From Limnohabitans sp. Rim8 (GTDB taxonomy: Bacteria > Pseudomonadota > Gammaproteobacteria > Burkholderiales > Burkholderiaceae_C): DNA of 64,000 bases. Of the stretch, positions 6,539-36,055 are shown in pieces. Numbering within the stretch: the stretch's first letter is position 1; every line of letters starts with the position of its first letter. Made by a program: the position numbers and the translations under genes. The stretch covers positions 1-64,000 of the forward strand of contig CAMDFK010000010.1 in assembly GCA_945897465.1 (NCBI GenBank), read 5' to 3'. The notes under the pieces were generated by a model. That model was not told the DNA's origin and did not search any database. It was given only the letters and a program-made list of their open reading frames with translations.

Positions 6539-6999
6539 GGCTTAACTCCAAGCTTGAAGCCGCCGGGGCGCTCGATGCGGTAGGCCTCTTGAGCCGATGG
6601 CTTGAGGGGCAGAGGTTCACGGGCTGGATTCAGGGGCAGGGCGGGTGCAACTGGGCTAATGGGTTGGCGCTGGCGCAGCGCGTCTTGTGTGCTCATGGCC
6701 TGGGCTTGGTTCATCTGGCGTTCCATCATGTCGGCCAGACCCATGCCGCCACGTTTGGCCATGCTCAACGACAATTCCTTGTCCATCAGGTCTTGGTACA
6801 TCTCCATGTTGCCGCCCTCGACCAGATCGCTTTTCTCGATGGTGTCGCGCATGGACTTCAACATCTGCTGAATGAAGTAGGCCTCAAACTGTTCGGCGGT
6901 TTTGCGCACCGCTTTGCTGGGGTCACGCGCGGCATCGCCCTTCAACTGCGTCAGGGCATTGAAGTCCATATAAGAACCGGAGGAGCTGATGTCGTTCAT
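6535..6999 (-). CDS. flgJ: short FlgJ: rod-capping domain only
   Basis: A 154-residue FlgJ. The N-terminal rod-binding domain is intact (KTAEQFEAYFIQQMLKSMR near residues 32-50 and LMDKELSLSMAKRGGMGLADMM near 70-91). This domain caps the growing rod in the periplasm. E. coli and Salmonella FlgJ have about 313 residues because a glucosaminidase domain is fused at the C-terminus. That domain is missing here and the chain ends in a Pro-rich tail. A separate peptidoglycan hydrolase gene in the same cluster (14944-16071) may supply the activity. The gene overlaps flgK by four bases and follows flgI by 34. Confidence 0.93.
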   Translation of the reverse strand: MNDISSSGSYMDFNALTQLKGDAARDPSKAVRKTAEQFEAYFIQQMLKSMRDTIEKSDLVEGGNMEMYQDLMDKELSLSMAKRGGMGLADMMERQMNQAQAMSTQDALRQRQPISPVAPALPLNPAREPLPLKPSAQEAYRIERPGGFKLGVKP

Positions 7000-14943: not shown

Positions 14944-16071
14944 TTACCGCAAAGTGGTGGGCAGCGAGTTGGCCACTTCGTCATAAAGACGGGTCATGGC
15001 ACCTTTTCCCAAGGCGCCGAGCACGGGGGGGGCGGTGGCCCGAGGCGTTTGGGGCAGCAGGGCGTTGGTCAAGTTGTGCAAGCCAGCCAAGATGGAGTTG
15101 CGTGTGATGGGGCCGCGCGTGTCTTGCCCCACATGCAGGTAGCGAGCCTGTGGCCCGGCAATGGGCAAAGGTGCATCGGGCCGGGTTTCTTGCCGGGCCG
15201 CTGGCGTGAGCACCGTCAGGTACAAATCGTCCAATCCAATGGGTGGCCCTTTGACGCGCAGTCCGGCTTGTGAAAAGTAGCGGTCCACCAAGTCCAGTTG
15301 CTGTAACAAGCCCATGCCCAAAATGGCCCGGGGGTTGTCTTTGAAGCCCACCGAGGCAGCCCCGCGGTTGGGGCCATCACAAAACTGGATGATGCCGTGG
15401 CAGTTGCCATTGCTGGCTTGGGGGTTCATGCCGCCGCTCTCCATCAGGCTCAAACGGGCAAAGTCGTCGGGCTGGAAGTTGTAACGGTCGGCCAGGGCAA
15501 GGATCCTTTCCTTGACGGCGGCCGCTTCATGGGCGGGCACAAAACCTTTCGCGACAGCCCGCTCCAAGGTTTTGTCCAGCACGGCGTGTTGGACCTCAGC
15601 GCCTTGGCTGTTGGCCCAAGGGGTCGGCCGGCTGGCCAAGGCGGTAGCCGTTGAGGCGGCGGGCGCGGCCAGTTGCCCCACCGACTGCGACTTGTGCGGG
15701 GCCAACTCCAGCGGCCCGGGTGCTTCAGATCGGGCCAAAGCAGGCATTCGGAGGCTCGAAAAGTCGATTTTCTGACCCGTCAGGATGAGGTCGGGGTTGT
15801 CAATCTGGTTGCGTGCGGCCACTTGGTGGGCCAAACGCATGGCCTGTTGCTCGCTGATGGGTTGTTGGTTTTGCCGGTAGTGCGCCTTGACCAGTCCAAT
15901 CAAGGTGTCTCCTTCTTGCGCTTGGACCACAGCGGCGCGTGGCGAAACATCGGCCAGCAGCTGTCCAAAAGCGCCCGAGCGGCCTGAAGCGGGCGACAAA
16001 GCACCGCCGCCCGACAGGGCAGAAGTGCTCAGCGCGGGCAGGCTGGGCAGGGGCGGTAAAAGGGCGCTCAT
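14944..16071 (-). CDS. flagellar-cluster peptidoglycan hydrolase with LysM domain
   Basis: A 375-residue protein. Residues about 50-105 look like a LysM module (VQAQEGDTLIGLVKAHYRQN ... LILTGQKIDF), which binds peptidoglycan. Residues about 170-300 resemble a lysozyme-like or soluble lytic transglycosylase fold: FARLSLMESGGMNPQASNGN and HGIIQFCDGPNRG. The Glu in MESGG is the candidate catalytic residue. No obvious signal peptide is seen, so export through the flagellar apparatus is possible. It is upstream of flgB on the same strand but separated from it by a sigma-54 promoter. Because FlgJ here lacks its hydrolase domain, this enzyme is the likely candidate for opening the cell wall for the rod (inference). 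Confidence 0.75.
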   Translation of the reverse strand: MSALLPPLPSLPALSTSALSGGGALSPASGRSGAFGQLLADVSPRAAVVQAQEGDTLIGLVKAHYRQNQQPISEQQAMRLAHQVAARNQIDNPDLILTGQKIDFSSLRMPALARSEAPGPLELAPHKSQSVGQLAAPAASTATALASRPTPWANSQGAEVQHAVLDKTLERAVAKGFVPAHEAAAVKERILALADRYNFQPDDFARLSLMESGGMNPQASNGNCHGIIQFCDGPNRGAASVGFKDNPRAILGMGLLQQLDLVDRYFSQAGLRVKGPPIGLDDLYLTVLTPAARQETRPDAPLPIAGPQARYLHVGQDTRGPITRNSILAGLHNLTNALLPQTPRATAPPVLGALGKGAMTRLYDEVANSLPTTLR

Positions 16072-17928: not shown

Positions 17929-18194
17929 TCGTCGCCCGGGCGCATGCCTTTGAGCCAATACACCCAGGACAGGATCACGGCCACGGCGGTGTAGAGCTCG
18001 GGGGGGATTTCCTTGTCCAGATCGATGCGGCTGAGCAAGGCCAGCAGTTGCGGATCTTCGGCCACGTAGACGCCATGGCGTTGGGCTTCGTCAATGATGC
18101 GTTGGGCCAGTTCGTCTTCGCCCTTGGCGCTGATGATGGGGGTTTTGCGATGGCCGTACTCCAGGGCAATGGCCTCTTTGAGCGGGGCTTTCAT
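17919..18194 (-). CDS. stand-alone FlhB C-terminal domain protein (FhlB/FlhX-like)
   Basis: A 91-residue protein matching only the distal part of the FlhB cytoplasmic domain: KTPIISAKGEDELAQRIIDE, AQRHGVYVAEDPQLLALLSR and DKEIPPELYTAVAVILSWVY. It has no membrane segments and lacks the NPTH self-cleavage motif, so it resembles the fragment left after FlhB cleavage. Such FhlB/FlhX proteins are known in several flagellated bacteria and can partly replace the FlhB C-terminal fragment. The ATG at 18194 overlaps the stop of the FliK-like gene by four bases. A longer frame to 18371 runs inside that gene and is rejected. A full-length flhB is present at 29180-30340. Confidence 0.88.
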   Translation of the reverse strand: MKAPLKEAIALEYGHRKTPIISAKGEDELAQRIIDEAQRHGVYVAEDPQLLALLSRIDLDKEIPPELYTAVAVILSWVYWLKGMRPGDEKN

Positions 18195-19306
18195 GTTTTC
18201 ACATCCAGCAAGCTGCCGGTCTCGGGGGCCCTCCAGGGCATGGGCTCGCTGGGGCCTGGGCCGTGGATGACTTGCAGCCGGGTCATGTTCAGGCCCGCGC
18301 TGTCGAGTTCTTCGGCCAGGTTGGGTGTCAGCTCGCGGGCGCGTTGGACCACGTCCTCGCGCAGGGCCCACATGACCATGTCGACCTCGGTTTCGCCGCT
18401 GATGCGGGTTTGCAGCCAGACTTCGCCCAGGTCGCGGTTGCGCGTGTGCAGGTGAATCACCAGGGGTGCTTTTTCTTCACCGGGTGGGCGGCGGCTGCGC
18501 ACAAAGCGCAGGGTCACCGGCTCGGCATCGGAAAAGGGCAGCAGCATCGACAAGACCCATTCACGCCCAGTCAAGGTTTCTGTGGCCGTGAGCTGACGGG
18601 ACTCGATGTCGTCGATGGCGTCTTGCACCCGGCCTGTGGCTTCGTGGCTGGTGCTTTGCAGCAGCCGAAGAATCTGCCTGAGGCCCGACTTCAGGTCCAC
18701 CAAGCCGGTGCCTTGGCCCTGAGCCAGCAAGGCCTCGGTCATGAAGCCGCTGCGCAGCATGAGTTGCTGGAGCTTTTCCGGGGTCAATTGCGCCATGCTG
18801 GGGCGCAAACGTTGCCACTGCAGCAGCCCTGCCAGCTCTGGCGTGGTCGAGCCCAGTCCTTGCAGCAAGCTGTCCAGGCCGCCCGGGCGCAGCAGCATGG
18901 CCAGAGCGCCCATGTCTGGGGGCCTGAAACCGAGTTGTTGCATGCGGTTAGGCAATGGGGCCAAGGGTGCAGCAGCCGCCTGTGCAGCGTTTTGGGCTTG
19001 CAGTGGCCGCAGCCAGATTGAACCGTCGTTTTGCAATTGCACCCGAAACAAGGCGGTGTCACCCGATGCCAGACGCAAGCCGGCGGGCAGTTCTTTGGGC
19101 AGGTCGATGAAGCGACCGGCCTGTGCGGGGTCTTGCAAGTTCAGGCGCAGCCGGTCCAGCCGTGCTTCAACGGTGGCCTGGATCACCTGGCCGTCGCGCA
19201 AACCGAGGTCGGCGGCGGTGCGTTCGACCACCAAGGGCAAGCGCCCCTCCAGGTAAATGGTGGGGGTTTTGGGGCTGAGGTGGGCGGTTTCAGCCCCGGT
19301 GATCAT
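18191..19306 (-). CDS. second FliK-like hook-length control protein
   Basis: A 371-residue protein whose C-terminal 90 residues look like the FliK hook-length control domain (APLVIHLHTRNRDLGEVWLQ, TRISGETEVDMVMWALREDV, ELTPNLAEELDSAGLNMTRL). The first 250 residues are Leu/Gln rich and not recognised further. A conventional fliK is present at 34430-36055, so this is a second paralogue. Its end overlaps the FhlB-like gene by four bases. FliK and FlhB are the two partners of the export specificity switch, so the pairing is suggestive. The ATG at 19306 is preferred to an upstream in-frame start at 19396, which would overlap the previous gene. Confidence 0.72.
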   Translation of the reverse strand: MITGAETAHLSPKTPTIYLEGRLPLVVERTAADLGLRDGQVIQATVEARLDRLRLNLQDPAQAGRFIDLPKELPAGLRLASGDTALFRVQLQNDGSIWLRPLQAQNAAQAAAAPLAPLPNRMQQLGFRPPDMGALAMLLRPGGLDSLLQGLGSTTPELAGLLQWQRLRPSMAQLTPEKLQQLMLRSGFMTEALLAQGQGTGLVDLKSGLRQILRLLQSTSHEATGRVQDAIDDIESRQLTATETLTGREWVLSMLLPFSDAEPVTLRFVRSRRPPGEEKAPLVIHLHTRNRDLGEVWLQTRISGETEVDMVMWALREDVVQRARELTPNLAEELDSAGLNMTRLQVIHGPGPSEPMPWRAPETGSLLDVKT

Positions 19307-19325
19307 GCAAGGACCTGCACTTGAG

Positions 19326-19886
19326 TCAGGGAAAACGCACCCAATGGCGCTGATCGCTCGGGTGGGTAGTGACTGAATGGCCCGTCGGACCCTCACCGCC
19401 CTGGAGCAAAGCCGACAATTCCGGGTTCTGGCTCAGCATCATTTGGCGCAAAGCAGCCATGCTGGGCACTTGCAGGTTGGCGCCCGCACGCATCTGGTTG
19501 GGTGAACCCGTGGGGAAGACCTGTGGGTTCAGGCTCACAAAAGCCTTGCGCAAAAAGTCGGGGTGCAAAGGCATGTTTGGCAAGGTTCGGCGAATCAACC
19601 GGTCCAGTGTTTCGCCCCGCTGCACCGTGACGGTGCTGCTGACCATGGCCGCGCCTGCATGCCCCATGTCTGAAGTTCCAGCGGGTGCGGGGGACCCGCC
19701 CGAGTGGGCGGAGGTGGGTGGCAAGCCACCTGATTGCTGAAACGCGGCTTGGGGCCCCAGCAGGGACTTGAGGGCCAGGGCTGCTGCTGTGTCGGCTGAC
19801 CATGATGGGCTGGTCCAGCTGAGCAGCGCGCAGCCGCCGAACAGCCAAAGGGCCAAGCGATGGGGGGTGAAAACGGCAGTGTTCAT
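19326..19886 (-). CDS. secreted FimV/LysM-type protein of the flgP-flgT cluster
   Basis: A 186-residue protein with a Sec signal peptide (MNTAVFTPHRLALWLFGGCA through SWTSPSWSA, cut before DTAAA). Residues about 80-140 resemble the FimV N-terminal LysM-like module: TVQRGETLDRLIRRTLPNMP, FLRKAFVSLNPQVFP and RAGANLQVPS. The function is unknown. A peptidoglycan-binding role in the flagellar envelope structures is plausible from the fold and the neighbours. It lies 29 bases after flgT-like. The ATG at 19886 is chosen because it gives a clean signal peptide. Confidence 0.6.
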   Translation of the reverse strand: MNTAVFTPHRLALWLFGGCALLSWTSPSWSADTAAALALKSLLGPQAAFQQSGGLPPTSAHSGGSPAPAGTSDMGHAGAAMVSSTVTVQRGETLDRLIRRTLPNMPLHPDFLRKAFVSLNPQVFPTGSPNQMRAGANLQVPSMAALRQMMLSQNPELSALLQGGEGPTGHSVTTHPSDQRHWVRFP

Positions 19887-19915
19887 GGTGTCATTCTGTT
19901 GCAGGTTGAGCGGAC

Positions 19916-21208
19916 TCACAAGGGCAGGGCCATCCAAGTGCCATGCGGGGCCAAGGCCGGGCCAGCCAGTTGTTGCAGCTCGGTGCGGTGGGGGCCGACT
20001 CTGACCACCTGGGCCAAGGCCAAGTGCTGGGCCACGCCCGGCTCCAGCATGCGGGCGGGCACATGGGCGGAGTCCACCAAAAGTACACGGTCACCGGGAC
20101 GCAAGCCGCTGTCGATGCCCGCTTGCAATTCCAGTGAAGGCGTGCCTTGCCGTCGCACATGGAACTGTATCGGCTCGCATTCGGTCTGCTTGTCCAACTG
20201 GGTCACCCATTGGCGGATGCGCTCTTGCAACAGGCCTTGCATTTGCTGCGCCCAAGCCGCAGGGCTTTGTGCCAAAGCCTGGAGGTCAATCGAGACGATT
20301 TGTTCGATTTGCCACTGCGGCACCAGCCGCGCACCCGGGGTGAGCTTTTGGCCCAAGCGCACGCTCAACGTCCAGCGCCACGGCGGTGCGTTCTCGCGCA
20401 GGTTCAGGCCCTCACCCATGCGATCTGGCCATGAACGTGACACTTCCGGTGCGTGGGGGTGCAGTGCAATCTCGGCCATCCAGCCACTGCGCTCTTCGGT
20501 CTGGCCTGTCAGGGCGCGCAGGTAGGCATTTTCGGATGGCGGGGCGGTTTGTGTCACGCTGTGCGTGCGCCAGCGCTGAGAGGCTTGCATGTTCTGGCTC
20601 CAGGCCTGTTGCGCCATCTGCAGCAGGGCCTGGCTGGCAAACAGTTGCGGGCCACTGAAGCCCTCGGGCATCACGGTCTGCACGCCCAGGGGCAAACGCC
20701 AGGGTCGGGGAGGGGCCTGGCAGCCTTGGTCCGCTCCCACCGGTTTCCAGCCCCAAGGCAGCACCTGTGCGCTGACCTCGGTCACGGCTTGGTTGTCTTG
20801 CACATAAGACAGCACCCGTACGCCGCGCACTTGCGCATCGGAGTGAAAATGGGCGCTCTCATGCAAGGCACCCTTGTCGTCCACCCAGGCCGAGCTGATC
20901 ACCCGTGTGGGCCGGTCCATGGTGGCGTCCAAAATGGCCTGGCGGATGGCGGCCAACTGGGCGTCATATTCTTTTTGCAGAGGGCTTGCATTCGCCTTGG
21001 TCGGCTGGGCCTGTGTACTCAAGAGCGCCTGAACCGGGGCCGAGGCCAGCGCCTTGGCTGCCAGTTCGGAAGGCTTGGGGCTTTGGGCTGCAGCCGTGCT
21101 GACCAGCGCACAGGCCATGGCGGCCGTGCCGATGCGCCACCAAGCCAGACCGCTTGCAGCACGATTTGGACGCACGGCGGGGCGTTGCAAGTTCACTTGG
21201 GGCAGCAT
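19916..21208 (-). CDS. flgT: FlgT-like flagellar H-ring protein
   Basis: About 430 residues. An N-terminal hydrophobic segment (WWRIGTAAMACALVSTAAAQ) looks like a signal peptide. Residues near 70-85 (LAAIRQAILDATM) begin a FlgT_N-like domain, and the C-terminal 70 residues (GLRPGDRVLLVDSAHVPARM, then LALAQVVRVGPHRTELQQLA) resemble the FlgT_C SH3-like domain. In Vibrio, FlgT builds the H-ring around the LP-ring and helps assemble the sodium stator. Here the gene sits next to a FlgP-like lipoprotein gene and near a pomA/pomB pair, which supports the call. The middle of the protein is divergent. A GTG at 21220 is an alternative start. Confidence 0.62.
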   Translation of the reverse strand: MLPQVNLQRPAVRPNRAASGLAWWRIGTAAMACALVSTAAAQSPKPSELAAKALASAPVQALLSTQAQPTKANASPLQKEYDAQLAAIRQAILDATMDRPTRVISSAWVDDKGALHESAHFHSDAQVRGVRVLSYVQDNQAVTEVSAQVLPWGWKPVGADQGCQAPPRPWRLPLGVQTVMPEGFSGPQLFASQALLQMAQQAWSQNMQASQRWRTHSVTQTAPPSENAYLRALTGQTEERSGWMAEIALHPHAPEVSRSWPDRMGEGLNLRENAPPWRWTLSVRLGQKLTPGARLVPQWQIEQIVSIDLQALAQSPAAWAQQMQGLLQERIRQWVTQLDKQTECEPIQFHVRRQGTPSLELQAGIDSGLRPGDRVLLVDSAHVPARMLEPGVAQHLALAQVVRVGPHRTELQQLAGPALAPHGTWMALPL

Positions 21209-24045: not shown

Positions 24046-24804
24046 ATGGACCTCGCAACCATCATCGGCTTTGTGGCCACCTTTGCCCTCATTATTTTGG
24101 CTATGGGCGATCCAGGACCGTTCATCGACATGCCCTCGGTCTACATCGTGATCGGCGGTACGCTCACAGCGGTGCTGGCGCGCAGCTCTTTTCCTGAATT
24201 CATTGGTTCGATTGGTGTCGCCCTCAAAACAGTCAAGTTCAAAATCGACCCTCCTGAGACTCTGATAGAAAAACTGGTCGAGCTGGGTACCATCGCCCGC
24301 AAGGATGGCATGATTGCCTTGGAAGGTCAGGAGATTGCCAACAAATTTTTGGCCAGCGGCATTCGCATGCTGGTGGATGGCTCCGAGCCGAGCATGATCC
24401 GCGCTACGCTCGAGCGCGAAATGGACATGATCAAAAAGCGCAACACCGAAGGCATGGCTTTCATCGCTTCGGCGCAGGAGATTGCACCTGCCATGGGCAT
24501 GATCGGCACCTTGGTGGGCTTGGTGCTGATGCTGGGCAACATGAGTGACCCCAAATCGATCGGTCCGGCCATGGCGGTGGCTTTGCTGACCACCTTGTAC
24601 GGCGCTGTGATTGCCAACGTGGTCTGCATCCCCTTGAACCAAAAACTGGCCAAACTGGACTTGGCCGAATCGCTGAACCACGAATTGATCATCGAAGGCG
24701 TGATGTTCATCCAAAGCGGTGGCAATCCCCGCATGCTGCCTGACTTGTTGATGCCATTTGTGAGTCCCAAGGCCCGCGCCAAAATGGAAGCTGCAGCTTC
24801 CTGA
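24046..24804 (+). CDS. pomA: flagellar stator protein, PomA type
   Basis: A 252-residue inner-membrane stator subunit. The beginning MDLATIIGFVATFALIILAM and the block APAMGMIGTLVGLVLMLGNM through MAVALLTTLYGAVIAN (about residues 146-190) look like Vibrio PomA, not E. coli MotA (295 residues). The cytoplasmic loop carries the charged residues that contact FliG (about 85-130). PomA-type stators usually use Na+. The coupling ion is inferred and cannot be proven from sequence. It forms an operon with pomB (15-base gap) under a FliA promoter. Confidence 0.9.
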   Translation: MDLATIIGFVATFALIILAMGDPGPFIDMPSVYIVIGGTLTAVLARSSFPEFIGSIGVALKTVKFKIDPPETLIEKLVELGTIARKDGMIALEGQEIANKFLASGIRMLVDGSEPSMIRATLEREMDMIKKRNTEGMAFIASAQEIAPAMGMIGTLVGLVLMLGNMSDPKSIGPAMAVALLTTLYGAVIANVVCIPLNQKLAKLDLAESLNHELIIEGVMFIQSGGNPRMLPDLLMPFVSPKARAKMEAAAS

Positions 24805-24819
24805 CCGAAGGGGTGAAAC

Positions 24820-26169
24820 GTGGCTGAAAACAATCCGGCAGAAGCAGAAGCTCAAGCAGAAGCAGAAGCTGTCCCGGCTAAACCTGCCAAACCCTTTGGG
24901 CCTGACGATTGCCCCAAGTGCGAAGAATGCCCGCCGTGCAAAGCCGGTGCGCCAGGCTGGATGGCGACTTTTGCCGACATGGCCACGCTGCTCATGGCTT
25001 TCTTTGTGCTGCTGCTGTCTTTTGCCGAGATGAACGTGCCCAAGTTCAAGCAAATCAACGGCTCCATGAAGAACGCATTCGGTGTGCAGCGAATCATTCC
25101 CACGGTGGAGCCGCCCAAGGCCCAAAGTTTGATTGCCCAACATTTCACGCCTTCGGTGGCCGAACCCACGCCCATCAAAACCATCCAACAAGAAACCACC
25201 GACGACCGCAAGGAAAACGTCGAACTCAAAACCGACGTGGCACCGCAAGCGCAGCAAGCTCTTGAGGCCACCAAGCAGGCTCTGGCACAGGAGATCAGCC
25301 GTGGCGAGGCCCAAGTCAAGATGGAGGCTGGCAAGGTCGTGGTCGAAATGACCGCTACCCCTTCATCGGGCGGAGGTGCGGGTCCATCAGGTCAGCAAAA
25401 AGGTGGCGCAGGATCGTCTGGCAGCAGCCAAGGCGGCAGCGCTGCATCTGGGGCCCAAAGCGCCGGGGCTTCAGCTTCCGGTTCTGCAGCGGGTGGGGCA
25501 TCTGCTGCCGGCGCACAAGCAGGGGGTGCCGCGGCCAAAGGGGCGCAGCAAGCCGGCACCGTGACCCAAGGTGAAATCGAGTTTTTTGCCAAAGTCGCCG
25601 ACGTTCAGTCCAAAGTACAGGCGCCTGTGGAAGTTCGCGATGTGCGTGCGGGTGCGACCGACAGCGCTGGTGGTGCCGGGAAAGCGGGCAGTGCGGGCGG
25701 TGGCAGCGGCAAGATGGACGCCGACGCCGAACTCCAGCGCATCCGTCAGGATTTGGCCAAAGAGATCAACGCTGGCAAAGCTGAAGTCATGCGCGACGGC
25801 GCCAAGATCATCATCCGCCTGGCCGAACAAGGCTCCTTCCGGTCAGGTAATGCAGACCTGCAACCGGGCTTCATGTCGCTGCTCGGCGAGGTCAGCAAAA
25901 CGGTCAGCAGCACCAAAGGCCGTGTCTTCATCGAAGGCCACACCGACAACGTGCCGGTCGTCTTCAACGAACGCTTCCGCTCCAATTGGGACCTTTCTGG
26001 AGCCCGCGCTGGCGCTGTGGCCGATTACATGTCGACCCAAGGCGGCCTGGGGGCTGGGCGTCTGAGCGTGTCTGGTTTTGCCGATACCAAGCCGATCGAG
26101 AGCAACGACTCCGCTGCTGGGCGAGGTCGCAACCGCCGAATCGAGATCATTATCGACGGCGCGGGCTGA
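24820..26169 (+). CDS. pomB: flagellar stator protein, PomB/MotB type, with long low-complexity linker
   Basis: A 449-residue stator subunit starting at GTG after AAGGGGTGA. The single membrane helix near residues 48-70 (GWMATFADMATLLMAFFVLL) carries the ion-binding Asp, here Asp53. Just before it are four Cys in CPKCEECPPC (31-40). The C-terminus is an OmpA-like peptidoglycan-binding domain (GRVFIEGHTDNVPVV, NWDLSGARAGAVADY, AAGRGRNRRIEI, about 350-447). Between them is an insertion of about 70 residues made almost only of Gly, Ala, Ser and Gln (about 183-248). Typical MotB/PomB has about 310-330 residues, so the linker explains the extra length. The intact plug and OmpA regions argue that it is functional. 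Confidence 0.92.
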   Translation: MAENNPAEAEAQAEAEAVPAKPAKPFGPDDCPKCEECPPCKAGAPGWMATFADMATLLMAFFVLLLSFAEMNVPKFKQINGSMKNAFGVQRIIPTVEPPKAQSLIAQHFTPSVAEPTPIKTIQQETTDDRKENVELKTDVAPQAQQALEATKQALAQEISRGEAQVKMEAGKVVVEMTATPSSGGGAGPSGQQKGGAGSSGSSQGGSAASGAQSAGASASGSAAGGASAAGAQAGGAAAKGAQQAGTVTQGEIEFFAKVADVQSKVQAPVEVRDVRAGATDSAGGAGKAGSAGGGSGKMDADAELQRIRQDLAKEINAGKAEVMRDGAKIIIRLAEQGSFRSGNADLQPGFMSLLGEVSKTVSSTKGRVFIEGHTDNVPVVFNERFRSNWDLSGARAGAVADYMSTQGGLGAGRLSVSGFADTKPIESNDSAAGRGRNRRIEIIIDGAG

Positions 26170-26233: not shown

Positions 26234-26270
26234 GAAAAAGCCCACCGCATACAAGGTATGTGTGGGCTTT
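26234..26270 (-). terminator. terminator between pomB and the coiled-coil gene
   Basis: AAAGCCCAC and GTGGGCTTT arms with an internal CATAC/GTATG pairing and a 3-base loop. A T-run (TTTTT) follows on the minus strand, so it ends the fliK-flhB-orf operon. On the plus strand the T-run is short. Confidence 0.75.
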
Positions 26271-26308: not shown

Positions 26309-27316
26309 TCAACGGGCTCCAGGTGGGCTGGTGGCGGGCGCTGTGTCGGTGCTGGCTTTGGCAGCAGGATTGACCCTTGGGAATTGGACAGGGCGGTCAC
26401 GGTTGGTGCTGGCGCTGGCGCTGTTTTTCTGCAGGGTTTCGAGGTAACGCTCTTTTTGCAGGACGACCAAGGCTTCGACATCGCGGTTGAGTTTGTCAAC
26501 ATTGCCGACAGCGCCTTTGAGTGCTTTGACTTCGTTGCCCAGGGCTTGCACAGCGCCCGCTTGGCTTTGCATGCGGCTGTTGATGGCCTGAACTTGTTTG
26601 AGCAAGTTATCACTGGAAGCGGCGACTTGCTTGGCAGTTTCTCCGGGTACGGTTTGAACCATGGTTTCGGATTTTTTCAGGGCTTCGTTGATGCGCCCCT
26701 CGATCAGGCCTTGGGCCTTGACTTGTTCGGTTTGCAAGGCGGACAGGCCCTCGATGCTGCGGTTGATGACGTCCAGGGATTCGAGGCCGGCATTGAGGTC
26801 GACTACACGCTTGCCCACAGCCATCATCATGGTGTCGAGTTGGTTGATGCGGCTGTTCATGCGCACGCCCATGACCAAGAAGAAGATCAGACAAATCAGC
26901 ATCAAACCACCGGTGGCGCCAAGCAAGATCAGGGCTTTTTTATGTCCGACTTCGGTCAGGGCCCTGAATTCGCTGGTGGCTTTGTTCATCTGACTGCTCG
27001 CAGAGGCCGCAGCCTGAGCGGATTGGCTGGCGATGTCGGCCGAATCGAGCACGACTTGGGCCAGCGCTTGGTATTGCTGGTAGGCGCGTTCGTCGACTGT
27101 CATGCCCGTGTGAGCGGCCGGTCCGGGTTGGGGTGCCGATGAGCTTGCCGATGGGGGAGTGTTTGGGGCCGACACCTGGGGCACAAAGTCACCGGCTCGC
27201 AGGCTTTGGAGGCCTGGTGTGTCGCTTTGGTTGACGGTGGCTTGTGCCTTGCCTTCATCGACATTGGGGGTGTCTACGAGGATGGGTTCAGTGGGTGTGA
27301 AGTCTTTGTCGCTCAT
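26309..27316 (-). CDS. membrane coiled-coil protein of the flhB-coupled module (unknown function)
   Basis: A 335-residue protein. Residues 1-75 are Pro/Ser/Thr-rich and disordered. Residues about 75-120 form a helix (YQQYQALAQVVLDSADIASQ). One membrane segment follows near residues 127-150 (ALILLGATGGLMLICLIFFL). The remainder, about 155-300, is a long Gln/Asn/Leu-rich coiled coil (SRINQLDTMMMAVGKRVVDL, NRSIEGLSALQTEQVKAQGL), and the tail is disordered. I do not recognise the family. It is the last of three genes that follow flhB with 4-base overlaps, so it is very probably co-expressed with the flagellar export genes. A structural role at the inner membrane is a guess. Confidence 0.8.
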   Translation of the reverse strand: MSDKDFTPTEPILVDTPNVDEGKAQATVNQSDTPGLQSLRAGDFVPQVSAPNTPPSASSSAPQPGPAAHTGMTVDERAYQQYQALAQVVLDSADIASQSAQAAASASSQMNKATSEFRALTEVGHKKALILLGATGGLMLICLIFFLVMGVRMNSRINQLDTMMMAVGKRVVDLNAGLESLDVINRSIEGLSALQTEQVKAQGLIEGRINEALKKSETMVQTVPGETAKQVAASSDNLLKQVQAINSRMQSQAGAVQALGNEVKALKGAVGNVDKLNRDVEALVVLQKERYLETLQKNSASASTNRDRPVQFPRVNPAAKASTDTAPATSPPGAR

Positions 27317-27798
27317 GGTCGTTTTCCTCGGGCTGTGGGCGTCATTTGCAGACGCTGGAGTTGTTCTGCCAATTGGGCGTTCTGGGTTCGGAGTTGTTCT
27401 ATACGGGCTTTGATCGGGTTGTCACGCTCCCAAACAGGCTCTGTGGGAGCCGGGGCTTGGATTTTGGCGTTGCTTTTGGGGCTGGCGCTGCGCACTTTGG
27501 CTTTGGGCTTGACGGCTTTGGCCGGTGTGGTCTTTGGCTGAGGGCTTGGGGCAGCACTTTCAACCGGTCGGCTGAGCTTGGCTTTGCTTCGCAAAGTTTT
27601 GGCCGGCGTGATCGGGGGCGTGAGGCGCTGAACTTTGATGGCCTTGGCAGGCGTTACTTTTTGGAGGTTGGCGGGCGCTTGGGTCGGTTCGTCAGGTGCG
27701 CTGACTTTGGGAGGGGACTTTCTTTGGGCCACGTTCGAGCCCGCGGGCATGTTCACAGCATGCGGTTTGTCGCTTCGGATGAGGGTGTTTTTTTTCAT
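27313..27798 (-). CDS. basic Lys/Pro/Ala-rich protein of the flhB-coupled module (unknown function)
   Basis: A 161-residue basic protein. Residues 1-120 are rich in Lys, Pro, Ala, Ser and Thr with KVSAPDEP- and KTTPAKAVKPKAK-like segments and no predicted fold. The last 35 residues (PIKARIEQLRTQNAQLAEQL) form a short coiled coil. It is not recognised. The ATG at 27798 overlaps the stop of the SPOR gene by four bases and is preceded by AGGACACC. The stop overlaps the next gene in the same way. The composition suggests binding to nucleic acid, to an acidic partner or to the membrane surface, but nothing specific can be claimed. Confidence 0.75.
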   Translation of the reverse strand: MKKNTLIRSDKPHAVNMPAGSNVAQRKSPPKVSAPDEPTQAPANLQKVTPAKAIKVQRLTPPITPAKTLRSKAKLSRPVESAAPSPQPKTTPAKAVKPKAKVRSASPKSNAKIQAPAPTEPVWERDNPIKARIEQLRTQNAQLAEQLQRLQMTPTARGKRP

Positions 27799-29183
27799 CG
27801 CGGGGTGTCCTGTTTGGGCGAGGCGGGATCGATTTGGGCTTGCAGGGTTCGGGTAGACCTCACCCAACTGCCGTTGGGGATGCCGGGTTTGCGAGCGGCC
27901 ACATAGCCATCGTTGACCTGGGCGTAGGGGCCTGAGACGATGACGAAATGCGCCACGCTGTCACCCGGATAGAAGGCCTCGACAATGGCGGTGTTTTTGA
28001 TGTCAGTCAGCCCATTCAACACCTCGACTGCTTTGTCCATCGTCTTGGCCGTGCCGTACTGCAGCAAAAAACTTTGTGGATCGAGACCCTGGATCCAAGT
28101 TTTGGTTTGTCGAGTGTCCTTCACGGTGTCCACAGCTTGTGGGTTTGGCCGGGTCTCCGGCGGCGCAGCAGGGCTGGGAGGGGCATTGGGCGACGGATTG
28201 GTGATGGCGCTCGGCGCAGGGGGGGAGACGGCCGTGATGTCGCCGACGGGTGAACTGGGGGTACTGGGCAAAGCTGGTGACTGTGTTTTCGCGACGGGGG
28301 TGGTGGGCTTTTGGATGCCAAACGATTGTGGCTGTAACCACAGCATGAGGAGGGTGGAGAGCGTCAATGCTGGCACCAGGAGCCATGCGATGGTTCTGGT
28401 CTGTTTCACCCAAGTGCTCGGATGCAGCGAATGGGTCAGTCCGGCAATGCGCTGGATGGTCGACTGACCATGCTGATGCCAGCCCAATACTTTTGCTTGG
28501 AAACGGCTGGTCGACTGAGCGGGTTCAGGGGCTATGGGCACCGTGTTCTGTGTCAGTGCATTGGCATCCAGGGTGGCCAAAACCGATGGATGGGCCATGC
28601 GTTTGAGCATTTGCAGGAGCGGGCCGCTGCGCCCCTCGCTGCTGGCCATCTCCAATGCCGCCTGTACTTGTTCTGAATTGGGGGTCTCGATGTCCCAGCG
28701 CAGCACCTTGCGACCAAAGGAGGACAAGTTGATGTTTTGCCTCAAGGGGCCTGACATCAGCAGGATGGCACGTATGTTGGCTCCGGGAAAATTTTGAATG
28801 AGGCGGGCCAACAACTGGACCTCGGCTTCAGGCAGGTTGTGAGCGTCGTGCACGATCCAGATTTTTGCGCCGTCGATGTTTGAAGGGTTGCGGGTGGCTT
28901 GTTGGACCGATTGGCTGGCAAGCACTTCGTTGAATCGTGTCAACAGCGACTCGGTGTTGGCCGGAAAATAAACCTCGATGCTGTGCTCAGGTGCTTGCTG
29001 TCTCAATTGCGCCAGCAACTGGTTGGTGTAGTGGTCGAGCAAGGCTTCGTGTTCGCAGAACAAGCCCAGGCTCAGGCCTTCCCGAGCGACGGCGTTGGCG
29101 CAGCCATCGATGCGCATGCGGTCGGCCGAACGGAAAACGAAATCGCTTGGGGGGTGTGTGCTGGGGTTGATCGGAATGTTCAT
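27795..29183 (-). CDS. SPOR-domain membrane protein with degenerate ATPase-like domain, coupled to flhB
   Basis: A 462-residue protein. Residues about 20-170 resemble the ATPase-like cytoplasmic part of DamX/ExeA-type proteins: IWIVHDAHNLPEAEVQLLAR corresponds to a Walker B region. The Walker A loop is absent, with GLFCEHEALL at the expected place, so ATP hydrolysis is unlikely. One membrane segment lies near residues 262-285 (TIAWLLVPALTLSTLLMLWL). A Pro/Ser/Thr-rich periplasmic linker follows, then a SPOR-like peptidoglycan-binding domain at about 362-440 (WIQGLDPQSFLLQYGTAKTM, VAHFVIVSGPYAQVNDGYVA). The ATG overlaps the flhB stop (ATGA). The architecture resembles E. coli DamX. The flagellar role is inferred from the operon only. 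Confidence 0.78.
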   Translation of the reverse strand: MNIPINPSTHPPSDFVFRSADRMRIDGCANAVAREGLSLGLFCEHEALLDHYTNQLLAQLRQQAPEHSIEVYFPANTESLLTRFNEVLASQSVQQATRNPSNIDGAKIWIVHDAHNLPEAEVQLLARLIQNFPGANIRAILLMSGPLRQNINLSSFGRKVLRWDIETPNSEQVQAALEMASSEGRSGPLLQMLKRMAHPSVLATLDANALTQNTVPIAPEPAQSTSRFQAKVLGWHQHGQSTIQRIAGLTHSLHPSTWVKQTRTIAWLLVPALTLSTLLMLWLQPQSFGIQKPTTPVAKTQSPALPSTPSSPVGDITAVSPPAPSAITNPSPNAPPSPAAPPETRPNPQAVDTVKDTRQTKTWIQGLDPQSFLLQYGTAKTMDKAVEVLNGLTDIKNTAIVEAFYPGDSVAHFVIVSGPYAQVNDGYVAARKPGIPNGSWVRSTRTLQAQIDPASPKQDTPR

Positions 29184-30340
29184 GCGGTGGCTCCTTGGGT
29201 ATTGATCTTCTTACCGTCAGGGTTGAACTGCATGCTGGGAGGAATTTTCACTTGGGGCTTGGCACGAGGCGGATTCATGGGGGAAGCTGCTTCGAGGCTG
29301 AAGACGTAAGCGATGACTTGAGCCACCGCGTGGTAAAGGTCTTCGGGCACTTGGTGTTCGACTTCGGTGGTGAAGTAAATGGCGCGAGCCAGCGGAGGCG
29401 CTTCAAAAATGTGGATGCCGTGTTTGTTGGCCTCGGCACGAATGAGGGCGGCCATGTGGTCGGAGCCTTTAGCCACCATGATGGGCGCGCCGTCTCCAGT
29501 GGGGTCGTATTCGAGCGCGACAGCGAAGTGTTCCGGGTTGGTGATCACCACGTCCGCGTCCTTGATGCGGTCCATCATGCGCGAGTTGGCCATTTCGCGT
29601 TGGCGCCGGCGAATCTGGGCCTTGACCTCTGGATTGCCTTCCATTTGCTTGAATTCGTCTTTGACCTCTTGTTTGGTCATGCGCATGCGTTGGGTGAAGG
29701 TGTGCTTTTGCCATGGCACGTCGATCATGGCGATCACGGCCAGGCTGAGCGCGACCCACAGGCCCGATTGCAGGATCATGCTGCCGGCGGCGTTCAGAGC
29801 AGGCTCCAGACCCATCTGACCGATCTGGACAAGCGCGTCCATGTTGGCCATCAATGACCACCACAGCACACCCGCAACCAACACGAATTTGAGGAGGGCT
29901 TTGCCCAGTTCAACCAGCGCATGGGTGCCAAAAATGCGTTTGAGGCCGCTGATGGGGTTGAGCTTGGAGCCCTTGGGCATGACCGCTTTGAGCGAGAACA
30001 GGTAACCCCCGGTCATGCCCGAGGCGACAATGGCCCCCACCATGGTGAAAATCACGATGGGCAGCACCAGGATAAATGCCGCCAACATCTGCTCGCCGAA
30101 GTGGGCGGGCAGCAGCAGGGGTTTTTCGATCAGTTGGCGGTCGAACACAAAGCCTTGCGCAAACACGGTGGACAAGCGGCTGACCACCCAACCGCCCGAG
30201 AGCATGAGCACGATCAATGAGCCGATCACAATGACCGCCGCTGGCAGCTCGGTGGAGCGGGCGACCTGACCGTCGTCGCGAGCCTTTTTGAGCTTTTGCG
30301 CCGTCGGGTCTTCTGTTTTGTCTTGAGCGCTTTCAGACAC
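29180..30340 (-). CDS. flhB: flagellar export gate protein FlhB, NPEH variant
   Basis: A 386-residue inner-membrane export and substrate-switch protein. It has four membrane segments in residues 30-215 and a C-terminal cytoplasmic domain. The start is GTG, supported by TAGGAG. The cytoplasmic domain shows the autocleavage site as NPEH (Asn268-Pro269-Glu270-His271) where most FlhB have NPTH. Cleavage in the family occurs between Asn and Pro, so it may still occur. The tail VPEDLYHAVAQVIAYVFSLE is conserved. It overlaps fliR by eight bases and the SPOR gene by four. Confidence 0.97.
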   Translation of the reverse strand: MSESAQDKTEDPTAQKLKKARDDGQVARSTELPAAVIVIGSLIVLMLSGGWVVSRLSTVFAQGFVFDRQLIEKPLLLPAHFGEQMLAAFILVLPIVIFTMVGAIVASGMTGGYLFSLKAVMPKGSKLNPISGLKRIFGTHALVELGKALLKFVLVAGVLWWSLMANMDALVQIGQMGLEPALNAAGSMILQSGLWVALSLAVIAMIDVPWQKHTFTQRMRMTKQEVKDEFKQMEGNPEVKAQIRRRQREMANSRMMDRIKDADVVITNPEHFAVALEYDPTGDGAPIMVAKGSDHMAALIRAEANKHGIHIFEAPPLARAIYFTTEVEHQVPEDLYHAVAQVIAYVFSLEAASPMNPPRAKPQVKIPPSMQFNPDGKKINTQGATA

Positions 30341-31109
30341 GGGGCGCTCCTATGACATCACGAAGCAGCGAAAAGCCCTGCACCCAGAGCCATTCGATGC
30401 GCCCCCCGATGCTGTCGAGTGAAATGATGAGGATGATGAGGCCTGCCATGATCATGGCGGGGAAGCCCACCGCGAAAATATTCAGGCTGGGCGCAGCCCG
30501 GGTGACGACACCCAGGCCCACGTTGATGAAGAGCAGAGAGACCATGACAGGCAGGGCCATGAGCACGGCGCCCAGAAACATCATGGAGCTCCACTGCAAG
30601 ACGCGGCCGTAGACGGCTTGGTTGAGGATGTTGGTGCCAATGGGCAGGCTGTTGAAGGATTCCAGGATCAAGCCCAACAAGATGGCATGGCCTCCGAAGC
30701 CGACGAAGATGAGGGTGGACATGACGATGAGCAACTGCGAGATGACGGGCACGTTGCCCATGTTCGGATCGATCATGTTGGCCATGGACAGGCCCATGGC
30801 GGCGGCAATGCTTTGACCGGCAACCACCACGGCGGCGACGACGATTTGCAGGATCAGGCCCATGGTCGCACCGATCATGATCTGGTTGAAGACTTCGACC
30901 AGGCCTTGAGCGCTGGTGGGGTCGATGACGGGCCAATTGTGCAGTGGGTAAACCAGCCAGGTGAGCACCAAGGCCACCAGGATGCGCATGCGGGTGTTGA
31001 AGGCGCTGAGCGAAAAAATGGGCGCGGTGATCATCAGGGCCGAGATGCGCAGCATGGGCCACAAAAAGGTGTAGAACCTTTCGACAACATCAGCGGCCAG
31101 GAAGTTCAT
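30333..31109 (-). CDS. fliR: flagellar export protein FliR
   Basis: A 258-residue membrane protein of the export gate with FliP and FliQ. Six hydrophobic segments are visible (for example FLWPMLRISALMITAPIFSL and IMIGATMGLILQIVVAAVVV). The motif AMGLSMANMIDPNMGNVPVI is typical of FliR. The ATG at 31109 begins MNFLAADVVERFYTFLWPML; an in-frame upstream extension to 31205 reads through fliQ and is rejected. It lies between fliQ (19 bases) and flhB (8-base overlap). Confidence 0.96.
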   Translation of the reverse strand: MNFLAADVVERFYTFLWPMLRISALMITAPIFSLSAFNTRMRILVALVLTWLVYPLHNWPVIDPTSAQGLVEVFNQIMIGATMGLILQIVVAAVVVAGQSIAAAMGLSMANMIDPNMGNVPVISQLLIVMSTLIFVGFGGHAILLGLILESFNSLPIGTNILNQAVYGRVLQWSSMMFLGAVLMALPVMVSLLFINVGLGVVTRAAPSLNIFAVGFPAMIMAGLIILIISLDSIGGRIEWLWVQGFSLLRDVIGAPRV

Positions 31110-31128
31110 GAGGGCACTCGCGTTGAGC

Positions 31129-31398
31129 TCAGATGAACAGGGTCGGGATGCGCTCGAAAATGCTGCGCGTGAAGTCGACCAGGGTGACCAGCATCCAACT
31201 GCCAAAAAGCAGCAGGGCCAAGGCCATGGCGATCAGCTTGGGGATGAAGCTGAGCGTCATTTCGTTGATGGAGGTGGCCGCCTGGATGATGCCGACGAAC
31301 AGGCCTACGGCCAGCGCCACCAGTAACAAGGGCGCGCTGATGAGGGCGATGGTCCACAGGGCTTGGCGGCCCAGGTCGATGACGGTGGCGGTGTCCAT
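31129..31398 (-). CDS. fliQ: flagellar export protein FliQ
   Basis: An 89-residue protein with two membrane helices, the normal size for FliQ. It begins MDTATVIDLGRQALWTIALIS, and APLLLVALAVGLFVGIIQAA and TSINEMTLSFIPKLIAMALA are the conserved segments. It surrounds the FliP pore together with FliR. It is in the standard order fliP-fliQ-fliR with short gaps. Confidence 0.97.
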   Translation of the reverse strand: MDTATVIDLGRQALWTIALISAPLLLVALAVGLFVGIIQAATSINEMTLSFIPKLIAMALALLLFGSWMLVTLVDFTRSIFERIPTLFI

Positions 31399-31410
31399 GA
31401 GAGCGCTCCT

Positions 31411-32160
31411 TTAGGGCATGGCAAAGCTGCCGGCCAGCGAGCCCATGATCAGGCTCCAGCCGTCGACCAGCACGAACAGCATGAGCTTGAACGGCATGGA
31501 GATCATCATGGGTGAGAGCATCATCATGCCCATGGACATGAGCACACTGGCGACGATGAGGTCGATGACCACAAAGGGGATGTAAATCAGAAATCCAATG
31601 GTGAAGGCGCTTTTGAGCTCGGAGGTGAGGAAGGCCGGCACCAGGGTGGTGAAGGGCACGTCCTGTGGGCTGGTGAAATTGGTGTTGCGCGCGATTTCCA
31701 TGAACATGGCGATATCGTCTTCGCGTGTTTGCATCAGCATGAAGGCACGAATGGGCTTTTCGGCTGCAGCCAAGGCTTTGTCAAAACTCAGGCCCTGGTT
31801 CATGTAGGGCAACAGCGCGTTTTGATAGACCTCGGTGAGCACAGGCGACATGACAAACAGGGTCAGGAAGAGCGACAGGCCGACGATGACCATGTTGGGC
31901 GGCGTCTGGCCGGTGCCCAGGGCCTGGCGCAGGAGCGACATGACGATGACGATGCGAACAAACGCCGTCATCATGAGCAACAGCGAAGGCAGCACCGACA
32001 AGGTGGTCATGAGCGCCAGCAACTGCAGAGTCAGGCTGTACTGCGTACCGCGGGCCGTGTTGGTGGCGGTGATGGCGGGCATGTCTTGCGCCTGAACCAG
32101 CAAGGGCAAGAGGCCGATCACGATGGTCAAGATCAGCCCTAGGGTGAGGCGGCGCTTCAT
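31411..32160 (-). CDS. fliP: flagellar export pore protein FliP
   Basis: A 249-residue core subunit of the export pore. It has a cleavable signal sequence (MKRRLTLGLILTIVIGLLPL then LVQAQ). Conserved regions include SLLLMMTAFVRIVIVMSLLR, QALGTGQTPPNMVIVGLSLF and MMLSPMMISMPFKLMLFVLV. The length matches E. coli FliP (245). The start overlaps the fliO stop by four bases. Confidence 0.97.
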   Translation of the reverse strand: MKRRLTLGLILTIVIGLLPLLVQAQDMPAITATNTARGTQYSLTLQLLALMTTLSVLPSLLLMMTAFVRIVIVMSLLRQALGTGQTPPNMVIVGLSLFLTLFVMSPVLTEVYQNALLPYMNQGLSFDKALAAAEKPIRAFMLMQTREDDIAMFMEIARNTNFTSPQDVPFTTLVPAFLTSELKSAFTIGFLIYIPFVVIDLIVASVLMSMGMMMLSPMMISMPFKLMLFVLVDGWSLIMGSLAGSFAMP

Positions 32161-34429: not shown

Positions 34430-36055
34430 TCAGACCAAGATGTCAAGACCATCACGGGGGTCTTTCACGCTTGGTGTACGGGGTGTTTCGGCGGTACTCT
34501 CCAGGGGGCTTGTCGCCATCTGGGAAGTTTTGCCTTTGGGCGTTCCCGGTGTCGAGTCTCCGCCACTTTGCCCGGTTTGACCGTTTCCAACATGGATGTT
34601 AGCAACATCCATGCCCATTTGTGCCAAGGTTTCCCTCAGTTTGCCCAAACCGTCTTGCAGCAGATCGCGCGTGACGGCATTGGGTGCAGTGAAGATGGCA
34701 TCGAATTCACCACTGCGCATCCGCATCTCCACTTCAATGTGGCCGAGTGTGGCCGGGCGCAACTGTAGTTTAAGGTGCCATTGGCCTCTTTCCATTTCAG
34801 ACAAGATGCGTTGCCCCACAGCTTGCCCCATTTTGTCCGCCAGATTTTGGATGTTTTCGCTGCGTGATGGGGTGTCAGGCAGGTCTTGGGCAGGGTTGTG
34901 GGTGTGGTTCAACTCGTTTCGTGCAGAGGCCAAAGCGTCCCAACGGGATGCGAAATTGGCATAAGCGGTGCCATGGGTACCGGTGCTGTTGGAACTGGCG
35001 TTGGAGCTGGCCTCGGCACCTAACAATTCCTGCAGTATCTCGCCACCCCAGTCGGGCCCCAAATCCAACGCCGTGGTGCTGACGGTGGATTCCTTGGGCG
35101 CATTCATTTTGTCCTGGAGGCTGCTGTTCATGCCGCTGCGCTGAATCCAGACCGCAGCAGGGGGTGGCATGCGCAGCATCTGAACAGGCAGGGCTTCCTC
35201 AGCGATGGTGGTGGCCAGGGTGCTGGTTTTGGAGGGCTGGACGGGTTCTTCTGAAGTGGTCCATAAGGCTTGTAGCCCGATTAATGCGCTGCCCGGCAGG
35301 CCTGAAGTTGGATCATTGGCCCGGTTGGGCACTTGCCCGCTTGGTGCGGTGTGTTGTGGCGCTATTTGAGTTGGCGGGGCTGTGAGGCTACCAGGTTGTG
35401 TGTTCAGTGCTGTGGTGACATGGGGCGCAGTTGCTGCGGAACTTGCGGTTGTGCTTGCAGAGACAGCTGAGAAATCAGTTTCCTTCGTGACTGTCCGGAC
35501 GAGGTCTTCGGCTGAAATGGCAGGGGAGCCGATTGGGTTGACCTTGCCAAAAGCGGCGAGGTGGGTGGGCATCGCTGCTTCAGTGCTCGTGGGCGCGAGA
35601 ACGGGAGTAAGCGCGGGAGCGTCAACGGCCACGCTCATGGAATGCTCAACACCTGCACCAAAGAGCCAATTGACAGCCTGTTCGTCCAGCCCTTGGGCGC
35701 GTGCAAAAGCTTCTAGGCTTTGCGCATCTGGGGCCGAGGTCTCCGGGGTGAGTACATTCAAATGTGGCCCCAAGGTCATGGCTTTGAGGGGAGGCCATGC
35801 TTGAGTGTATGAAATGACAATGGTGCTGTCCAAGGCCAGGAGGTCGGCAACTTCTTGCCCTTTGGGTTCTGCCGTGCCCATTTCACTCGCCGCGATGGCT
35901 TGCGGACTGTCGAGCTGGATCTGAAACATTTCAGACATGAATTGACCAAAGTTTGTCCCATCTTGTGATGGGCTGGCTCCGGTTTTTAGTTCCAAGGTTC
36001 CCGTATTGCTCAGGGTGTTGGCTGGCTTGAGGTTGTCGCTGAGGATGATGGTCAT
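34430..36055 (-). CDS. fliK: flagellar hook-length control protein FliK
   Basis: A 541-residue hook ruler. The N-terminal 400 residues are low in complexity (Ala, Ser, Thr, Pro, Gln rich), as usual for FliK. The C-terminal domain is clear: MERGQWHLKLQLRPATLGHI, MRMRSGEFDAIFTAPNAVTR and DLLQDGLGKLRETLAQMGMD, near residues 423-485. It is the first gene of the long operon ending at 26309. It is divergent from flhA and has a possible sigma-54 element at 36149-36164. A FliK paralogue lies at 18191-19306. Confidence 0.92.
   Translation of the reverse strand: MTIILSDNLKPANTLSNTGTLELKTGASPSQDGTNFGQFMSEMFQIQLDSPQAIAASEMGTAEPKGQEVADLLALDSTIVISYTQAWPPLKAMTLGPHLNVLTPETSAPDAQSLEAFARAQGLDEQAVNWLFGAGVEHSMSVAVDAPALTPVLAPTSTEAAMPTHLAAFGKVNPIGSPAISAEDLVRTVTKETDFSAVSASTTASSAATAPHVTTALNTQPGSLTAPPTQIAPQHTAPSGQVPNRANDPTSGLPGSALIGLQALWTTSEEPVQPSKTSTLATTIAEEALPVQMLRMPPPAAVWIQRSGMNSSLQDKMNAPKESTVSTTALDLGPDWGGEILQELLGAEASSNASSNSTGTHGTAYANFASRWDALASARNELNHTHNPAQDLPDTPSRSENIQNLADKMGQAVGQRILSEMERGQWHLKLQLRPATLGHIEVEMRMRSGEFDAIFTAPNAVTRDLLQDGLGKLRETLAQMGMDVANIHVGNGQTGQSGGDSTPGTPKGKTSQMATSPLESTAETPRTPSVKDPRDGLDILV

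Follow-up and report, generated by a model that had tools for sequence, protein, structure and literature searches.

We analysed three genes that follow flhB in a flagellar cluster of Limnohabitans sp. Rim8, on a 64,000-nt stretch of DNA (GCA_945897465.1, contig CAMDFK010000010.1, positions 1 to 64,000; hereafter the window) that belongs to a 3.0-Mb genome. These genes, designated T1, T2 and T3, constitute a conserved, lineage-specific flagellar module, since flhB was found upstream of T3, on the same strand and within 5.2 kb, in 70 of 70 testable loci, and the FlhB proteins encoded beside T3 fall into a single clade. T1 was identified from its sequence and modelled fold as a DamX-type protein without a P-loop. 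With a probability of about 0.48, the three products would act as a scaffold for the assembly or anchoring of the flagellar basal body at the polar or septal wall.

The operon lies on the minus strand in the order fliK, fliL, fliM (assigned by Pfam), a gap, open reading frames (ORFs) presumed, by position, to be fliP, fliQ and fliR, and then flhB, T1, T2 and T3. The features concerned are the following.

30333-32160, minus strand: ORFs at the fliP-fliQ-fliR positions, upstream part of the flhB-T3 operon; order conserved in relatives
29180-30340, minus strand: flhB, export gate protein; GTG start; Pfam Bac_export_2 4.2e-125, NCBIfam flhB above cut-off
27795-29183, minus strand: T1, 462 aa, DamX-like, with a pseudo-AAA+ domain, one transmembrane (TM) helix, a Pro-rich linker and SPOR
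28569-29135, minus strand: T1 N-terminal AAA+ fold, aa 17-205, from AlphaFold, Foldseek, absence of a P-loop and the invariant columns
28335-28391, minus strand: T1 TM helix, aa 265-283, from hydropathy; N terminus predicted inside
27816-28094, minus strand: T1 DamX-type SPOR domain, aa 364-456, from a profile match to 2lfv
27313-27798, minus strand: T2, 161 aa, small, no predicted TM helix
26309-27316, minus strand: T3, 335 aa, single TM helix followed by a long predicted helix
26873-26929, minus strand: T3 TM helix, aa 130-148
26237-26270, minus strand: terminator-like hairpin and U-run on the T3 strand, between T3 and the convergent motB

The sequence-only reading of this DNA had described three genes coupled to flhB and closed by a terminator, and the coordinates, the 4-nt ATGA overlaps at flhB/T1, T1/T2 and T2/T3 and the hairpin were recovered as it had described them; the fliR/flhB overlap is 8 nt. 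The hairpin had a predicted energy of -18.5 kcal/mol (z -3.1); a consensus terminator scan did not list it and returned fewer terminator-like sites than in its shuffles, and a promoter scan performed no better than shuffles. The dN/dS values of T1-T3 were 0.19-0.34 when the window was compared with relatives (eight comparisons), and 0.27-0.45 for one pair of relatives. Because of this constraint and of homologues in many genomes, T1-T3 are, on comparative evidence, real genes evolving under constraint, and a chance overlap or artefact was ruled out on the same grounds. The trio is also without a name, as had been supposed, in that none of the window's T1-T3 exceeded a Pfam or NCBIfam cut-off.

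Co-occurrence was assessed in the T3 profile set, made up of the 80 best among 128 relatives, which a single peptide pattern had retrieved. Ten of the 80 loci stop too near T3 for flhB to be judged; T3 lying away from flhB, an arrangement specifically looked for, was not seen among the 80. In 68 of these 80 loci an ORF for the T1 N-domain begins no more than 60 nt from the flhB stop codon, and the other 12 comprise eight without a usable flhB or T3 match, three in which the script took another FlhB-like stretch, and one (locus L103) in which no T1 ORF was found. Among the 68 loci, 4-nt overlaps were present at flhB/T1 in 36, at T1/T2 in 16 and at T2/T3 in 29, and at all three junctions in 6. 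The earlier argument from coupling to balanced synthesis is not supported by these counts, and exact ATGA coupling was excluded as the conserved feature.

The distribution of the module is narrow. T3 matches with E ≤ 0.001 were obtained in 19 of the 399 family genomes searched, representing 6 of 141 genera, or in 18 genomes and 5 genera if genome G315, whose match is weak, is left aside. The check proposed earlier was whether the trio accompanies flhB across Burkholderiales; the association with flhB held, and the breadth did not, these numbers excluding the trio as a general Burkholderiales trait. A single-sequence search with T1 gave matches in 8 of 200 genomes, of which that in G028 was weak and interrupted by stops, and FlhB-family proteins were found in 156 of the 200. 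A class-wide T3 search of 369 genomes returned six weak partial matches beyond the query's own genome, and class- and order-wide T1 searches were dominated by matches to the SPOR half alone. Non-flagellated relatives were also considered as a place where the trio might reside, and the complete same-genus genome G208, which has no FlhB, gave no T1 or T3 match (n=1).

A search with FlhB only, independent of the trio, detected the protein in 98 of the 130 family genomes examined. Identity to the query was 52-100% in six of these genomes and at most 43% over near full length in the other 92, with the exception of one contig-end fragment at 45%. All six genomes with the high-identity FlhB were T3-positive in the family search; a genome-by-genome comparison of the 130 with the 399-genome T3 set covers these six in full and the others in part. 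In a maximum-likelihood tree of 80 FlhB proteins, all 39 from T3-bearing loci fell on one side of a branch with 100/100 support and a long stem (0.69). Eleven of 12 ordinary FlhB proteins of the family clustered elsewhere, the twelfth (L206) being a very long branch, and the rows nearest to the T3-bearing FlhBs came from other families of the same class. The rows were hand-chosen and most trio rows had entered through T3, so that the tree demonstrates a common grouping of these FlhBs and not an absence of trio-less members.

Gene order distinguished the same loci. At ordinary family loci flhA follows flhB by less than 200 bp in 11 of 12 cases (4.9 kb in L206), and in class-wide loci it was visible in 26 of 29, at -3 to 1251 bp downstream of flhB. 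No flhA was found directly after flhB at T3-bearing loci; in the window, flhA, flhF, an FlhG-type gene and an ORF at the fliA position form a divergent unit. The T3-bearing FlhB clade spans Burkholderiales (Comamonadaceae) and the marine Litorivicinaceae and their relatives, e.g. HIMB30 and LSUCC0096, which suggests, from the sequences compared, that the flagellar cluster was transferred between orders. A distinct flagellar class, common to Burkholderiales and Litorivicinaceae, can be recognised by its FlhB and by the T2-T3 genes. Three loci titled Akkermansia muciniphila, Methylobacillus and Fonsibacter (L064, L091 and L096) carry an FlhB that groups with Burkholderiales, and their titles may be wrong. 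A separate stretch resembling the FlhB C terminus (17934-18251, minus strand, 34% identity) also occurs in many other flagellated genomes. A search of a viral collection returned nothing for FlhB.

The sequence-only reading had assigned to T1 a SPOR domain and a dead ATPase-like domain, and both were confirmed for the T1 family. The AlphaFold model of T1, built on a 31-row alignment of the window and named-locus proteins, has a confident N-domain (ten-residue blocks at pLDDT 79-96 across aa 11-200) and a confident C-domain, separated by a helix that carries the TM segment and then a stretch of low confidence. Foldseek matched the model to the AAA+ proteins RFC, ORC, Hda and DnaC with E-values of 5e-6 to 1e-4 (5e-6 to 5e-5 for the first three); TM-scores over the whole query were low (0.20-0.32) and the rmsd was large, because the match involves one of several domains. 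The P-loop pattern was present in 0 of 68 T1 homologues. The N-domain of T1 is an AAA+ fold without a P-loop, and ATP binding has probably been lost, judging from the sequences. Lys and Arg were more frequent before the TM helix than after it in 28 of 31 homologues, by which T1 is predicted to be bitopic, with its N terminus inside and a large cytoplasmic domain.

The T1 profile matched 2lfv, the SPOR domain of Escherichia coli DamX, with E=5.4e-7. Pfam SPOR (E ≤ 0.1) was called in 13 of 31 T1 homologues, the window's own T1 not among them, and NCBIfam DamX was among the matches listed for 2 of 31 (best 1.6e-5). In DamX, Q351 has a role in glycan contact and W416 in septal localisation, according to passages of PMC6895207. 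The equivalent Gln and Trp were each present in 25 of 26 T1 SPOR sequences, the exception being L097, and a basic residue stood two positions after that Trp in 26 of 26; the third named DamX residue, S354, is not Ser in the window's T1. The assignment of T1 as a DamX-type protein, one that lacks the P-loop, follows from the 2lfv match, the retained SPOR residues and the AAA+ fold. The same genome encodes a T1 paralogue outside the flagellar cluster (G000:C16, about 27843-29114; L194:8844-10115), which has an AAA-like domain without a P-loop (N-domain 4.7e-7) and a SPOR domain (2.8e-20) and which could be the actual DamX of this cell.

T2 is small and variable. A TM helix was predicted in 0 of 22 homologues, 14 of the 22 carry an H-x-V motif close to the N terminus, and the C terminus bears a Leu-rich stretch. 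The earlier description of T2 as a basic protein fits the window's copy and fails for the family, in which 10 of 22 aligned proteins are acidic. T3, as had been noted, is a membrane protein with a coiled coil. Its one TM helix, flanked by more Lys and Arg on the N-terminal than on the C-terminal side in 24 of 28 homologues, is followed by about 150 residues of predicted helix containing an invariant A-V-G-K-R block. From these sequence features T3 appears to be a membrane-anchored coiled coil, periplasmic by prediction, whose helix could span about the width of the periplasm if it extends there; the model was moderate (mean pLDDT 70, pTM 0.24). Pfam matches of the window's T2 were all below cut-off, and Pfam and NCBIfam matches of T2 and T3 together were either below cut-off or of the coiled-coil type.

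The remainder of the cluster bears on how this flagellum passes the wall. FlgJ of the window (6535-6999, minus strand, 154 aa) consists of the rod-binding domain alone. Among stretches whose contigs reached flgJ, FlgJ was short in 7 of 7 readable genomes of the trio's flagellar class (the window, G011, G106, G001, G006, G918 and G1067; loci L255, L256, L257, L258, L263 and L268 besides the window), and the two ordinary family FlgJ proteins that were read (L267 and L269) had 284 and 319 residues, with an extra C-terminal part that we take to be a wall-hydrolase domain. The trio's flagellar class therefore seems, as far as these sequences indicate, to organise wall passage differently from its relatives, with or without T1. 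An unnamed gene at 14944-16071 (minus strand), whose product begins like a LysM protein (LysM match just 1.1) and weakly matches a lytic transglycosylase (9udh, E=3.4e-4; no Pfam match), recurs in four other loci. The view that a short FlgJ means no wall hydrolase and forces preinstallation at the septum was weakened by this gene and by short FlgJ proteins in T1-less genomes.

The cluster also encodes an FlhF-type protein (SRP GTPase domain; NCBIfam FlhF below cut-off), a ParA-like protein and a sigma-54 activator, the last two presumably FlhG and FleQ. Two genes have FliK-type C-terminal domains (18191-19396, below cut-off, and 34430-36055, both minus strand). The product of 19326-19937 (minus strand), between the FliK-like gene and an unnamed 434-aa gene, gave a weak match to the FimV core (E=2.7e-5, below cut-off), and a related sequence occurs in LSUCC0096.

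The proposed mechanism is as follows. T1, T2 and T3 would be an accessory module belonging to one flagellar class; this class also possesses genes of the FlhF and FlhG types, from which its flagella are presumed to be polar. T1 would be a bitopic inner-membrane protein of DamX type whose cytoplasmic AAA+ domain, no longer binding ATP, could serve as a docking platform and whose periplasmic SPOR domain could bind peptide-stripped glycan, a material made at the septum and hence at the future new pole. T3 would extend its coiled coil from the inner membrane into the periplasm, T2 would be a flexible cytoplasmic linker, and the three, in contact with one another and with the export gate, would hold or guide the nascent basal body or export gate at division-made wall. 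A scaffold for assembly or anchoring is favoured because of the predicted topology of T1 and T3, the septal-glycan type of the SPOR domain and three precedents. SPOR domains bind glycan freed of stem peptides, which is enriched at the septum (passages of PMC6895207); the precedents are the proposed pole selection dependent on the SPOR protein RgsS (PMC7822825), a pilus machine installed in advance at future poles by domains that bind septal wall (passages of PMC5285504), and GspA-GspB, discussed below. The narrower proposal that a DamX without catalytic activity recognises septal glycan free of peptides and holds or delivers the export gate at the new pole is rather unlikely. If it were true, daughter cells would inherit an installed flagellum, and lake and ocean plankton would possess a second, SPOR-based route to polar flagellation beside that of HubP/FimV and FlhF.

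Several observations weigh against a wall-bound scaffold. Four same-genus loci (L026-L029) carry flhB-T2-T3 without T1, and so does genome G876 (L196), in which no T1 lies in the operon and a T1-like gene sits on another contig. SPOR was undetected in 20 of 68 T1 proteins (19 clear cases and L118, which is split by a frame break), every invariant column of the T1 alignments falls in the pseudo-AAA N-domain, complete 4-nt coupling is confined to the few loci counted above, and the Foldseek search with the T3 model gave no fold match. Short FlgJ proteins also occur in two genomes without T1 (G001 and G006), and the LysM/lytic-transglycosylase-like gene implies that the wall may be opened without T1. 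The genome further encodes a FimV above cut-off, a possible ordinary pole landmark, and it has been argued that binding to the wall is not enough for FimV to choose the pole (PMC12918733), which counsels caution over any wall-binding landmark.

SPOR and tight coupling are thus not the conserved core of the module. The absence of T1 from the operon in five loci and of SPOR from some T1 proteins indicates that wall binding at this place is dispensable, and since SPOR is missing in some lineages and T1 in others, contact between SPOR and the wall is probably helpful without being essential, or has been replaced in some lineages. The anchoring in the wall suggested by the sequence-only reading accordingly retains its premise, SPOR of the DamX type, and cannot account for the function in full.

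A periplasmic motor scaffold, in which T1 and the coiled coil of T3 brace the stators or accessory rings against torque and have no part in placement, is a doubtful alternative. A stator pair stands head-on to T3 (24046-26169; motB by Pfam, motA presumed from position), MotA-like matches occur downstream of T3 in many relatives, T3 is predicted to be a membrane-anchored long helix, and the cluster encodes an LPP20-type lipoprotein, a type known from ring-bearing motors. MotA is 72-76% identical in L091-L095. The stators beside the trio nevertheless vary, MotA being 25-28% identical (34% in one partial match) in many Limnohabitans-like loci (L061, L065, L075 and others) whose T3 is 53-77% identical, and the trio tracks flhB, not the stators.

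It is quite improbable that T1 is a second DamX of cell division, co-expressed with flagella so as to time flagellation with septation. Known SPOR proteins are all said (PMC6895207) to act in division or morphogenesis, T1 has a SPOR domain of the DamX type, and the paralogue shows that the architecture exists elsewhere in the same genome; against this, T1 is housed in the operon of one FlhB clade, often has no detectable SPOR, and was not found in G208, the complete same-genus genome without FlhB (n=1). Regulation of the FlhB export gate (substrate order or assembly) by the T1 pseudo-AAA domain and T2, with the periplasmic parts secondary, would suit the constant position of T1 after flhB, the cytoplasmic location of all invariant T1 columns and the dispensability of SPOR, and is likewise improbable given that T1 is absent from five loci whose operon is otherwise similar and that T3 is membrane-anchored and periplasmic by prediction.

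The assembly or anchoring scaffold bears on how a large machine is sited through the cell wall at a chosen place and on how a polar flagellum finds the pole. A type of domain that reads septal wall is joined here to a flagellar export operon, in an aquatic clade with named strains, so that the link between division, wall chemistry and flagellation can be tested directly. Among the titles and abstract beginnings listed, from which most subscription papers are missing, none described a SPOR protein encoded in a flagellar operon.

Among known systems, the ordinary flagellum of the family shares FlhB and FlhA of the export gate with the flagellum studied here and differs from it in several respects. 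Its FlhB is 35-38% identical to the trio-type FlhB in the 12 loci examined, flhA usually follows flhB directly, FlgJ is longer in the two that were read, and no convincing T1 or T3 was found at these loci, the best T1-profile match (0.00014) being a 167-aa ORF away from flhB. HubP and FimV are bitopic wall-binding proteins, as is predicted of T1, and are tied to polar flagella (passages of PMC12918733); they have LysM and TPR domains in place of SPOR and pseudo-AAA, FimV is encoded separately in the same genome, and neither LysM nor FimV/TPR domains were matched in the window's T1-T3 by Pfam or NCBIfam. RgsS of Sinorhizobium meliloti is a SPOR protein proposed to read amidase-processed wall as a landmark of the new pole (PMC7822825), but it is FtsN-like and directs cell growth and not flagella.

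The GspA-GspB pair offers a parallel in layout, with a cytoplasmic AAA+ domain, a TM helix, a periplasmic wall-binding domain and an adjoining second bitopic protein, all serving assembly of an envelope machine, the type II secretion system; some GspA proteins have no periplasmic region, as some T1 proteins have no SPOR (passages of PMC9239104). The wall-binding domain of GspA is PF01471, which was not among the Pfam matches of T1, whereas that of T1 is SPOR, and T1 has no P-loop; GspA-GspB serves a secretin, the trio a flagellum. No GspB-like match for T3 was obtained in PDB sequence, Foldseek or Pfam searches (25 of 35 Pfam families listed), which is weak evidence. DamX itself is bitopic, with its N terminus inside and a large cytoplasmic domain (PMC7642682), and T1 resembles it in its type of SPOR, its one predicted TM helix, its large cytoplasmic domain and its long linker. 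Many DamX-like ORFs of other orders in the class also have a cytoplasmic AAA domain. The P-loop, found in none of the 68 T1 proteins, was present in 13 of 18 SPOR-bearing ORFs that the T1 profile retrieved from other orders of the class; the comparison covers those ORFs, and the five without it include a cut ORF and members of other SPOR families. T1 differs from DamX, further, in being encoded in a flagellar operon and in sometimes lacking SPOR. The parts of the module are thus recognisable, the DamX family and a coiled coil; their combination and their flagellar setting are not.

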